Below, in pieces: positions 4,450-6,710 of a DNA stretch of 6,710 nt. Both the position numbers and the translations under genes were made by a program. Under the pieces are notes generated by a model. That model made no database searches and was not told the origin of the DNA. It saw only the letters and a list, made by a program, of their open reading frames with translations. This DNA is from a bacterium (lineage in GTDB: Bacteria; DYJV01; JALVYZ01), in the NCBI GenBank assembly GCA_027037705.1, contig JALVYZ010000391.1, positions 1 through 6,710 on the forward strand, read 5' to 3'. Position 1 is the stretch's first letter, and the number at the start of each line of letters is the position of its first letter.

Positions 4450-5808
4450 ATGATAAGAAAACCAGCAGTTGCAGGGATGTTTTACCCAGGAGATAAATCA
4501 TCATTATTAGCAGAAATTAAGTCTTATTTAAATAATGTTAATGTCCCAAAAATAGACAATGTAAAAATTATTATTTCTCCTCATGCTGGATACATGTATT
4601 CTGGTCCTGTTGCTGCGTATGGTTACAAAACAATTGATGGGAAAGAATATGATAATGTATTTATTTTTGCACCTTCACATAGAGCACAATTTAGTGGAAT
4701 TTCTGTGTATAATGGAGAAGGATATGAAACTCCCCTTGGAATAGTAGAAATTAATCAGAATATAGTTAAAAAGCTTTTTGAAGAATCTAATTTAATAAAA
4801 TTTTATGAATATGCACATGTTCAGGAACATTCATTAGAGGTTCAATTACCATTTTTACAGGTGGTTTTGAATAATAAATTTAAGTTAATCCCTGCGCTTG
4901 TTGGTACTCACAATATAAATGAGTTAATTGAAATTGCTAAAATTGTAAATGATTATATTGGAGAAAAAGATTTAATTGTTTTAAGTACAGATTTGTCTCA
5001 TTATTATAACTCTAATAAAGCAAAAATATTGGATTCTGTAGCTATAGAAGATATTAAAAATTTAGATATTGAAAAGTTTTATAATGATATAGCTTCAGGA
5101 AAGACTGAAGCATGTGGTTTTGGGCCTTTGATTATTGGAATGGCAATAGCAAAATTAAGAGGATGGAATAATTGTGAAATATTAAAATATGCAGATTCTG
5201 GAGATGTTTCAGGAGATAAATCTCAGGTTGTGGGATATGTTTCTGCTGTAATTTATGATAATTCAGAAGATTTTAGTTTAAATGAGTATGAAAAAGACAT
5301 ATTACACAAAATTGCTTATGAATCTATAAAATCAAAACTTGAAAATAGACCTTTTTTGCTGGAATATGAAGTAACTCCAAATTTAGCACAAAAGAGAGGA
5401 GTTTTTGTAACACTTCACAAATTTGGTCAACTTAGAGGTTGTATTGGAAATATTATTGGAATTGAACCTTTACATGAGACTGTTAAAAATATGGCAAGAG
5501 CAGCAGCTTTTGAGGACCCAAGATTTCCATCTTTAAAATATGAAGAACTTAAAGATATTGATATAGAAATTAGTGTATTAAGTCCTTTAAAAAAAGTTAA
5601 AGATATAAATGAAATTGAAGTTGGCAAGCATGGAATTTACTTGAGAAAAGGTTTCTACTCAGGTTTATTACTTCCCCAGGTTGCTACAGAATATAATTGG
5701 GATAGATTAACTTTTTTAGATCAAACATGTTTAAAGGCAGGGATGCAGCCTGGTTGCTGGAAAGATAGAGATACTGAAATATATATCTTTTCTGCAGATG
5801 TTTTTTAA
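4450..5808 (+). CDS. Fused Memo-AMMECR1 protein (AmmeMemoRadiSam system proteins B and A in one chain)
   Basis: A 452-residue two-domain protein. Residues 1 to about 270 form a Memo domain, a fold related to class III extradiol dioxygenases. It has RKPAVAGMFYPGD (3-15), SPHAGYMYSG (43-52), APSH (74-77), EHSLEVQLPF (126-135), STDLSHY (179-185) and EACGFGP (220-226). His45, His77 and Cys222 appear to match the human MEMO1 metal ligands His49, His81 and Cys244. Residues from about 276 to 452 form an AMMECR1 domain with LRGCIG (328-333), FPSLKYEEL and a C-terminal stretch with WDRLTFLDQTC and GCWKD. In many bacteria and archaea these two families are encoded together with a radical SAM protein, whose gene is not in this window. 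The system's reaction is unknown to me; metal-dependent redox chemistry or RNA/protein modification are only possibilities. No signal peptide or membrane segment is visible. ndk follows 100 bp downstream on the same strand. Confidence 0.93.
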   Translation: MIRKPAVAGMFYPGDKSSLLAEIKSYLNNVNVPKIDNVKIIISPHAGYMYSGPVAAYGYKTIDGKEYDNVFIFAPSHRAQFSGISVYNGEGYETPLGIVEINQNIVKKLFEESNLIKFYEYAHVQEHSLEVQLPFLQVVLNNKFKLIPALVGTHNINELIEIAKIVNDYIGEKDLIVLSTDLSHYYNSNKAKILDSVAIEDIKNLDIEKFYNDIASGKTEACGFGPLIIGMAIAKLRGWNNCEILKYADSGDVSGDKSQVVGYVSAVIYDNSEDFSLNEYEKDILHKIAYESIKSKLENRPFLLEYEVTPNLAQKRGVFVTLHKFGQLRGCIGNIIGIEPLHETVKNMARAAAFEDPRFPSLKYEELKDIDIEISVLSPLKKVKDINEIEVGKHGIYLRKGFYSGLLLPQVATEYNWDRLTFLDQTCLKAGMQPGCWKDRDTEIYIFSADVF

Positions 5809-5908
5809 AAATATATTGAAAATAAATAAATAATATGGCATTAGCAGTTGGTTTTTAAATTATTTTTATTGATGGTAAAATCTAATAAAATGAAGGAGGA
5901 TAATTAAT

Positions 5909-6322
5909 ATGGAGAGAACACTTGGAATCATTAAACCTGATGCTGTAAGTAAAAATGTTATAGGTAAAATTATTTCAATTATTGAAGAAAATGAAATAAA
6001 AATAAAAGCAATGAAAATGGTTAAATTAACTGAAGAACAAGCAAAAGGTTTTTATTATGTTCATAAAGATAAACCTTTTTTTAATGACTTAATTAAATTT
6101 ATGACTTCAGGTCCTGTTGTTTTAATGCTTTTGGAAGGGGAAAATGTTATTGAAAGATGGAGAAAAATAATGGGTGTTACAGATCCAGCAAAAGCAGATG
6201 AAGGAACAATTAGAAAATTATATGGAACTGATATTGAAAAAAATGCAGTGCATGGATCAGATGCCCCAGAAACTGCTGAATATGAAACAAAATATTTTTT
6301 TAATGCATTGGAGGTTTGTTGA
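5909..6322 (+). CDS. ndk: Nucleoside diphosphate kinase
   Basis: Cytoplasmic enzyme that transfers the gamma-phosphate of ATP to NDPs and dNDPs through a phosphohistidine intermediate, balancing NTP and dNTP pools. At 137 residues it has the usual bacterial length. It begins ERTLGIIKPDAV, with Lys9 in the conserved nucleotide-contacting position. It has FMTSGPVVLMLLEG (64-77), the region GVTDPAKADEGTIRKLYG (89-106) and the active-site signature NAVHGSD (112-118), with His115 as the phosphorylated residue. ATG at 5909 follows AAGGAGG (5893-5899) by nine bases. It ends with TGA, and a degenerate heptamer array begins four bases later. It lies 100 bp after the Memo gene with no clear terminator or promoter between them, so co-transcription is possible but not shown. 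Confidence 0.97.
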   Translation: MERTLGIIKPDAVSKNVIGKIISIIEENEIKIKAMKMVKLTEEQAKGFYYVHKDKPFFNDLIKFMTSGPVVLMLLEGENVIERWRKIMGVTDPAKADEGTIRKLYGTDIEKNAVHGSDAPETAEYETKYFFNALEVC

Positions 6323-6325
6323 AAG

Positions 6326-6360
6326 ACAGTTGGGAGTATGGAGTGCGGAGTCGAGAGTTA
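6326..6360. repeat. Degenerate heptamer array, core xxAGTxx, five units
   Basis: Five consecutive 7-bp units all carry AGT at positions 3-5. Three in a row are GGAGTAT, GGAGTGC and GGAGTCG (6333-6353), flanked by ACAGTTG before and AGAGTTA after. The array begins four bases after the ndk stop codon. Unit length and words resemble the short tandem heptanucleotide (STRR) repeats known from filamentous cyanobacteria, but nothing else here suggests a cyanobacterium. Confidence 0.75.
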
Positions 6361-6371
6361 TTAAAAAAATG

Positions 6372-6411
6372 AAAATGCGTAGAAGCGAAAATGCGAAGAT
6401 GCGGAAAAGCA
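6372..6411. repeat. Degenerate octamer array, consensus AARATGCG, five units
   Basis: Five consecutive 8-bp units: AAAATGCG at 6372 and again at 6388, AAGATGCG at 6396, with the diverged TAGAAGCG at 6380 and GAAAAGCA at 6404. The register is exact at 8 bp throughout, although the preceding array has period 7. Confidence 0.75.
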
Positions 6412-6425
6412 TATTTAATTATTAT

Positions 6426-6449
6426 CGCATTAACACATTTACGCAACGA
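6426..6449. repeat. Degenerate octamer array in opposite orientation, consensus CRCATTWA
   Basis: Three 8-bp units, CGCATTAA (6426), CACATTTA (6434) and CGCAACGA (6442). Their reverse complements (for example TTAATGCG) resemble the AAAATGCG units just upstream, so the two octamer arrays form an imperfect inverted pair around a short AT-rich loop (6412-6425). Confidence 0.5.
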
Positions 6450-6453
6450 GTTT

Positions 6454-6481
6454 AAGGTTGAAGGCTGAAGGCTGAAGGATG
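6454..6481. repeat. Heptamer array, consensus AAGGCTG, four units
   Basis: Four consecutive 7-bp units: AAGGTTG, AAGGCTG twice in a row, and AAGGATG. Only position 5 varies. A decayed fifth unit (AAGAAAA) and a short A-run follow. This is the most regular of the arrays in the ndk-glyQ spacer. Confidence 0.85.
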
Positions 6482-6490
6482 AAGAAAAAA

Positions 6491-6525
6491 TACGAACCAC
6501 GAGCCACGAATTACGAACAACGAAC
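6491..6525. repeat. Heptamer array, consensus YACGAAC, five units
   Basis: Five consecutive 7-bp units: TACGAAC twice (6491, 6512), with CACGAGC, CACGAAT and AACGAAC. ACGA is present in all five. From this array on, the plus strand is rich in A and C and poor in G, the reverse of the preceding G-rich arrays. The segment that follows (6526-6574) is A-rich with recurring AATAAC words and no clear period that I can defend. Confidence 0.8.
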
Positions 6526-6574
6526 AATAAATAACTACTAATAACAACGAATAACGTATAAATAACTAAAAACT

Positions 6575-6598
6575 AACACCATCACCAGCACTAACACT
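6575..6598. repeat. Hexamer array, consensus AxCACY, four units
   Basis: Four consecutive 6-bp units: AACACC, ATCACC, AGCACT and AACACT. The array ends ten bases before the glyQ ribosome-binding site, so it probably lies in or near its leader. The same word family occurs in period 6 beside ftsH (964-981 on the plus strand and 912-929 on the minus strand). Confidence 0.65.
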
Positions 6599-6618
6599 TA
6601 TTTAATTTGGAGGAAATA

Positions 6619-6710
6619 ATGTTATTTCAAGATGTTGTAATGAATCTTCAAAAATTTTGGGCAGATTATGGATGCATTATTCAACAGCCATATGATATAG
6701 AAGTTGGAGC
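6619..6710 (+). CDS. glyQ: Glycyl-tRNA synthetase alpha subunit, N-terminal part, truncated by window edge
   Basis: Catalytic alpha chain of the bacterial alpha2-beta2 class II glycyl-tRNA synthetase, which charges tRNA-Gly. Only 30 codons are visible. They read [19 protein letters not shown] followed by [11 protein letters not shown]. The elements FQD, LQ-FW, GC and QPYD-EVGA match the highly conserved GlyQ N-terminus. ATG at 6619 follows GGAGG (6609-6613) by five bases, in the same TTTGGAGGAAA context as aspS. It is separated from ndk by the 296-bp repeat patchwork. A beta-subunit gene (glyS) would be expected downstream, outside the window. I see no convincing promoter, and none of the structure expected of a T-box leader. 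Confidence 0.93.

Follow-up and report, generated by a model that had tools for sequence, protein, structure and literature searches.

The ndk–glyQ spacer of a bacterial genome as a probable mosaic of dispersed, oriented short-period repeat modules

Introduction

In the 6,710 nt stretch of DNA analysed here (the window), the genes ndk and glyQ lie in the same orientation and are separated by a chain of short tandem arrays that differ in word and period. The question raised by this locus is whether such a chain grew in place or was brought in. Heptamers are the commonest class of intergenic tandem repeat in prokaryotes and have no known function (SPADE survey 2018, PMC6344855). Intergenic repeats of TAACTGA occur in Beggiatoaceae, Cyanobacteria and Bacteroidetes (MacGregor 2015, PMC4679880); in one genome they are mostly forward and lie shortly upstream of start codons, in some genomes other heptamers are intermixed, and they are missing from the shorter spacers of close relatives (PMC4679880). 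Heptamers of the STRR/LSSR type have been described from Calothrix, from Nostoc (GGGGATT) and from Xanthomonas (GGGAATC) (Mrazek 2007; Rehm 2015, PMC4692102).

Organisation of the ndk–glyQ Spacer

The ndk and glyQ genes and the spacer modules between them are all on the forward strand. The upstream gene, ndk (nucleoside diphosphate kinase, nt 5909–6322; Pfam NDK, E 6.5e-57), is an ORF with an intact stop codon at 6320–6322. Further upstream (nt 4450–5808) is a fused Memo-AMMECR1 gene (PF01875 and PF01871), in which two domains of the AmmeMemoRadiSam set are joined in a single protein.

The spacer (nt 6323–6604) consists of consecutive arrays with periods of 7, 8, 8, 7, 7, 10/7 and 6 bp. Module a (GGAGTNN, period 7, nt 6332–6359) begins 9 bp past the ndk stop and has four units; it was delimited by period scan and has copies at about 20 loci, with unit order conserved. 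Module b (AARATGCG, period 8, nt 6371–6410), found by Tandem Repeats Finder (TRF) and by its copies, is the left arm of an imperfect hairpin whose right arm is module c (CGCATNWA, period 8, nt 6426–6449; period scan, copies and folding). Module d (AAGGNNG, as AAGGCTG; period 7, nt 6454–6484; TRF and genome-wide word count) is linked by an A-run, GAAGAAAAAAYACGAACC, which was seen at four other loci, to module e (YACGAAC, period 7, nt 6491–6525; TRF). There follow module f (AATAACNACNAATAAC, AATAAC-type, mixed period 10/7, nt 6526–6570; TRF) and module g (CTAACACCATCACCAGCACTAACACT, AACACY, period 6, nt 6573–6598). The latter lies directly 5′ of the glyQ ribosome-binding site (nt 6605–6618; TTTGGAGGAAATA, with TTTGGAGATAATA in the relative), which, from comparison with L052, is probably a remnant of the ancestral spacer. 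The downstream gene glyQ (glycyl-tRNA synthetase alpha) begins at nt 6619, and the 30 aa visible to nt 6710 match Pfam tRNA-synt_2e (E 3.3e-9).

Both direct reading and the period scan with TRF bear out the preliminary description of this locus in placing several word families end to end. It had counted six arrays, and these exist as described, except that there are seven segments, nt 6526–6570 having been merged with its neighbours. The exact register that it reported is kept within modules but is broken between them by phase breaks and A-rich linkers.

The arrays are real when the spacer is set against 1000 shuffled versions that preserve its dinucleotides, the comparison that the preliminary description had proposed. 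Autocorrelation at period 7 was 0.473, compared with 0.295 in shuffled sequence (z 7.0, 0/1000), and period 14 also stood out (z 4.7, 0/1000). The best local windows at periods 7, 8 and 10 were equalled in only 0–1 of the 1000 shuffles, and the best-local-period cover was 0.609 vs. 0.403 ± 0.018 (0/1000). TRF, run independently, reported arrays of periods 7, 8 and 10. The G+C content of the spacer is 35%, against 27% for the window.

Dispersal of the Modules through the Genome

The genome to which the window belongs (2.05 Mb in 496 contigs, 93% complete) carries spacer-like sequence at 51 places by blastn. Trimers of the module d word AAGGNNG were found at 71 sites when up to three mismatches were allowed, and trimers of its reversal at none; the 6-bp module g has 38 sites and its reversal none. 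A sample of contigs totalling 243 kb has about 31% of its intergenic DNA in short-period arrays, compared with 3% in shuffles, a share that is biased upward because these contigs were picked for containing spacer matches and the word definitions were fixed after inspection of this genome. Site counts over the whole genome, the polarity and the comparison of orthologues are much less affected. Intergenic arrays in the same sample have prevailing periods of 6, 7, 8 and 10, while those in coding sequence are mostly of 6, 8 and 9. Additional module families occur elsewhere in the genome, such as GGTTAGTTNA (period 10), GTGAAYWGTGAA (period 7) and AATGAATAATGAAAAA (period 7), and in all there are at least ten diverged word families, with periods of 6, 7, 8 and 10.

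Probable Insertion into Operon Junctions

The comparison genome, G001, is of the same order, with an ndk 74% identical; it was the sole relative of the phylum used, so that insertion and deletion are polarised by one genome. Only 21 bp separate its ndk from its glyQ, compared with 296 bp here, and the ribosome-binding stretch before glyQ is alike in both genomes (TTTTGGAGATAATAATG vs. ATTTGGAGGAAATAATG); the modules would therefore have been added between the ndk stop and this stretch. A decayed coding gene, which the preliminary description had named as a competing possibility, was rejected: the spacer ORFs have no Pfam match, and the relative has a spacer of 21 bp at this place.

Sampling 490 kb of G001 added three conserved co-directional pairs: their module-filled gaps of 209, 206 and 179 bp in the present genome correspond to 8, 8 and 21 bp there, while 13 array-free pairs have median gaps of 2 bp in the present genome and 12 bp in the relative. 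One pair flagged as array-bearing shows the reverse, with 52 vs. 269 bp; its orthology is doubtful, the proteins being only 34–37% identical. Arrays occupy 4.5% of the intergenic DNA of G001, which is near background; the spacer finds two weak matches there and module g has no site. On these comparisons, the modules appear to have been inserted into junctions between co-oriented operon genes.

Polarity, Position and Hairpin

Among 121 gaps sampled (91 co-directional, 30 divergent or convergent), the co-directional ones contain 88 modules in sense and 5 in antisense orientation, and only two modules were found outside such gaps. Modules a and d follow the upstream stop at a median of 15 and 7 bp, module g precedes the downstream start by a median of 30 bp, and a precedes g (6:0). 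Polarity and position thus obey an mRNA-like rule, which selection could explain by sparing only those orientations that do no harm, as could function.

The imperfect b–c hairpin folds with z −4.1 here, and eight other places gave values from −2.5 to −6.0. Since it pairs about equally well on the antisense strand, a role in RNA is not implied. The spacer folded as a whole is not special (z −1.4 against shuffled sequence), only b–c standing out, and Rfam covariance models gave no match to it up to E 1. A promoter or terminator hub was rejected, as counts in the spacer equal those in shuffles. Long b–c hairpins with a common non-periodic core like ATATTCTAATTGAYGYATGA were seen at L084 2940–3130, L084 140–330, L087 14505–14768 and L088 50–215; the core sits between two octamer-array arms, and the whole resembles a small inverted-repeat element.

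The rule of polarity and position, with the near-confinement of modules to co-directional gaps, is what might be expected of functional mRNA elements that tune expression of the downstream gene, a possible although doubtful reading. Its parts, which are no firmer, would be purine runs resembling an SD sequence (GGAG, AAGG) behind the stop, a b–c hairpin serving in processing or stabilisation, and, ahead of the next start, an unstructured leader rich in A and C. The recurrence of the hairpin at nine places is in keeping with it, and the TAACTGA repeats just upstream of starts offer a parallel (PMC4679880). However, the orthologous junctions of the relative manage without any module, module composition varies freely from junction to junction, and neither the whole-spacer fold, the Rfam search nor the equal stability of the antisense hairpin speaks for RNA function.

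Shared Blocks and Local Slippage

The preliminary description favoured local slippage expansion followed by mutation, and slippage at heptamers is also a published guess for this class of repeat (Mrazek 2007, as cited in PMC4679880). On that account, different local seeds would have expanded independently at each junction, which would fit the short periods and the differing unit numbers between copies (d and g). The order of units argues otherwise. The succession GGAGTCN-GGAGTGC-GGAGTCG-GGAGT of module a recurs at many loci, as do CACGAACCACGAGCCACGAATTACGAA and CTAACACYATCACYAACACYAACAC, and at different loci the GC variant is second from the 3′ end and the CG variant last. These variants are not exchangeable between positions, as none of 5000 within-array permutations reproduced the order. 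In module g, 14 of 21 copies share the same length of 26 bp, ATCAC is mostly the second unit, and the right boundary, ACACTWATTTA, is common to its copies.

The joins between word families recur as well. The a–b block GGGAGT..AAAAAAATGAAAATGCGTAGAAGCGAAAATGCGAAGATGCGG is 91% identical over 79 bp in L084 and 82–87% identical at further places. The d–e block including its A-run linker was found in L002, L004, L008 and L083, the first three sharing GAAGAAAAAACACGAACCACGAGCCACGAATTACGAA, and the f–g block is present at about ten loci. Since unit order and junctions are shared between loci, ready-made modules were most simply copied, with slippage adjusting their length; unit number varies among copies of d and e, and g differs too. 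The arrays would accordingly be pre-formed dispersed modules, not six local slippage events.

That unrelated loci share both the order of units and the joins between modules largely refutes independent slippage as the origin of the modules, and ancestral junctions of 8–21 bp are also too short to have seeded seven arrays. Slippage is left to explain differences in unit number only, and as the source of the modules it is quite improbable.

Occurrence in Other Genomes

Similar words do turn up in other genomes, as the preliminary description had supposed. Four exact copies of AAGGCTG occur in at least 117 bacterial genome stretches from about 13 phyla, including the isolates Thiocapsa sp. KS1, Halochromatium roseum and Pseudomonas citronellolis. 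In IMG/VR, 3.5 copies of the word were found in 49 stretches compared with 6 for the reversed word, eight times commoner. The arrays of other words that flank AAGGCTG sites have overwhelmingly a period of 7 (144 arrays, compared with 25 for period 8 and 7 for period 6).

The suggestion that such words recur across phyla as spurious peptides holds in part against reversed-word controls. It is clear for AAGGCTG. In Planctomycetota it is supported for ACGAACN, with 42 sites in 6 of 246 genomes and 0 sites for the reversed word, and in Omnitrophota for GGAGTNN, which occurs in 10 of 237 genomes while its control occurs in 3. For these other spacer words it fails in viral contigs, where they show no excess over reversed words (15 vs. 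37; 8 vs. 10). Spacer-like sequence is nearly absent from 29 bacterial genomes of other families. Modules g and h are essentially absent beyond their own genome and look private to its lineage; a viral-contig match to g was rejected as a repeat in the coding sequence of an unrelated phage, and a match to h as an unrelated array.

Some heptamer arrays of other phyla lie within genes, part of them apparently in frame (L180 near nt 7318, L184 near 6411, L317 and L289 near 1500). From reading them, we take the host genes to be DHH/RecJ-like and trpE-like, with two from Omnitrophota that look like valS-type tRNA synthetase genes. Thiocapsa sp. KS1 carries a very long perfect AAGGCTG array (L231 nt 5664–5887 and beyond) beside CTGCCTC heptamers. 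In L314 (Planctomycetota), mixed 8–9 bp words (CACGAAGGACACTAAGAG, CGCAAAGACGCAAAGACGCC) crowd the spacer around YACGAAC arrays, giving another multi-word mosaic.

The prevalence of periods near 7 across phyla, together with the A-runs that separate modules and insertions at defined places, could be taken to indicate a dedicated array-making enzyme, either a reverse transcriptase, telomerase-like or otherwise, that synthesises from a template, or a REP/REPIN-type transposase. An origin of the retroelement type (DGR, retron or telomerase-like) finds no counterpart in the present genome, which has no match to RVT_1 at 93% completeness, while the same search was positive in the controls E. coli, Bacteroides ihuae and Methanosarcina acetivorans. 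The many different words would require many templates, there is no REP-like palindrome apart from b–c, and no enzyme is linked to the arrays, so that such a writer is very improbable. An assembly or binning artefact is scarcely credible: although a genome of 496 contigs is probably metagenome-assembled, orthologous genes flank the inserted modules at four junctions, and isolates carry words of the same class.

Comparison with Known Repeats

REP/REPIN, ERIC and further dispersed intercistronic repeats are extragenic and often lie within transcribed regions. The modules resemble them in being dispersed and extragenic and in the hairpin of the b–c part, which is imperfect and built of octamers. 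REP/REPIN elements have a short palindromic core and a RAYT transposase; the modules yielded no palindromic core of the REP kind, and only a minority of them are inverted repeats (for REPINs, compare PMC3116915).

The likeness to cyanobacterial STRR-type heptamers drawn in the preliminary description stands, as modules a, d and e have period 7 and the arrays share with STRR/LSSR tandem units of 5–11 bp, mostly 7, that are intergenic and beyond chance. STRR/LSSR, however, are described as local one-word arrays that vary by local slippage of that word, whereas the present modules are dispersed, have a fixed unit order and mixed periods, and vary only in unit number. The TAACTGA repeats are closer in setting, being likewise intergenic heptamer arrays, in one genome mostly forward and near starts, and the relative's spacer is likewise short and without arrays. 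They differ in having one dominant word, as against at least ten word families here with periods of 6, 7, 8 and 10 and a set polarity, with unit order preserved and some modules tied to the upstream stop. None of 16 stretches of the present genome contains three tandem copies of TAACTGA, and the near-start position is occupied by another word. Intergenic heptamer repeats are thus a known, broad and unexplained class; what is new here is a modular, oriented operon-junction repeat family.

Origin and Significance

The ndk–glyQ spacer is probably a mosaic of copies from a modular repeat family, dispersed in the genome and specific to its lineage, which invaded the junctions of co-transcribed genes. 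Spread would have been by copying of existing blocks, most likely through recombination or gene conversion, for which the many near-identical arrays flanked by A-runs may have served as partners, and replication slippage would then add or drop units. Selection would purge insertions that break transcription or translation, and therefore sense-oriented modules between co-directional genes would remain. The A/C-rich, unstructured module by the start probably keeps the ribosome-binding site free, so that insertion is tolerated. Neither a target-site duplication nor a terminal inverted repeat was recognised at the modules, and no enzyme that might copy them came to light, RVT_1 being the domain searched for.

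A stronger proposal, which is rather unlikely, is that a machinery yet to be named copies a limited module set, in one polarity and at a preferred position, into co-transcribed junctions, where it acts on the mRNA, and that the same process makes the heptamer arrays of many other phyla. If so, the related arrays of these phyla would share one making process. The origin and role of heptamer arrays, the most abundant intergenic tandem class of prokaryotes, are open (PMC6344855). In the present genome, the arrays are diverged enough to provide unit-order fingerprints by which copying can be separated from slippage, and with rules of polarity and position in operons, the function of such arrays becomes a plain question for reporter tests.
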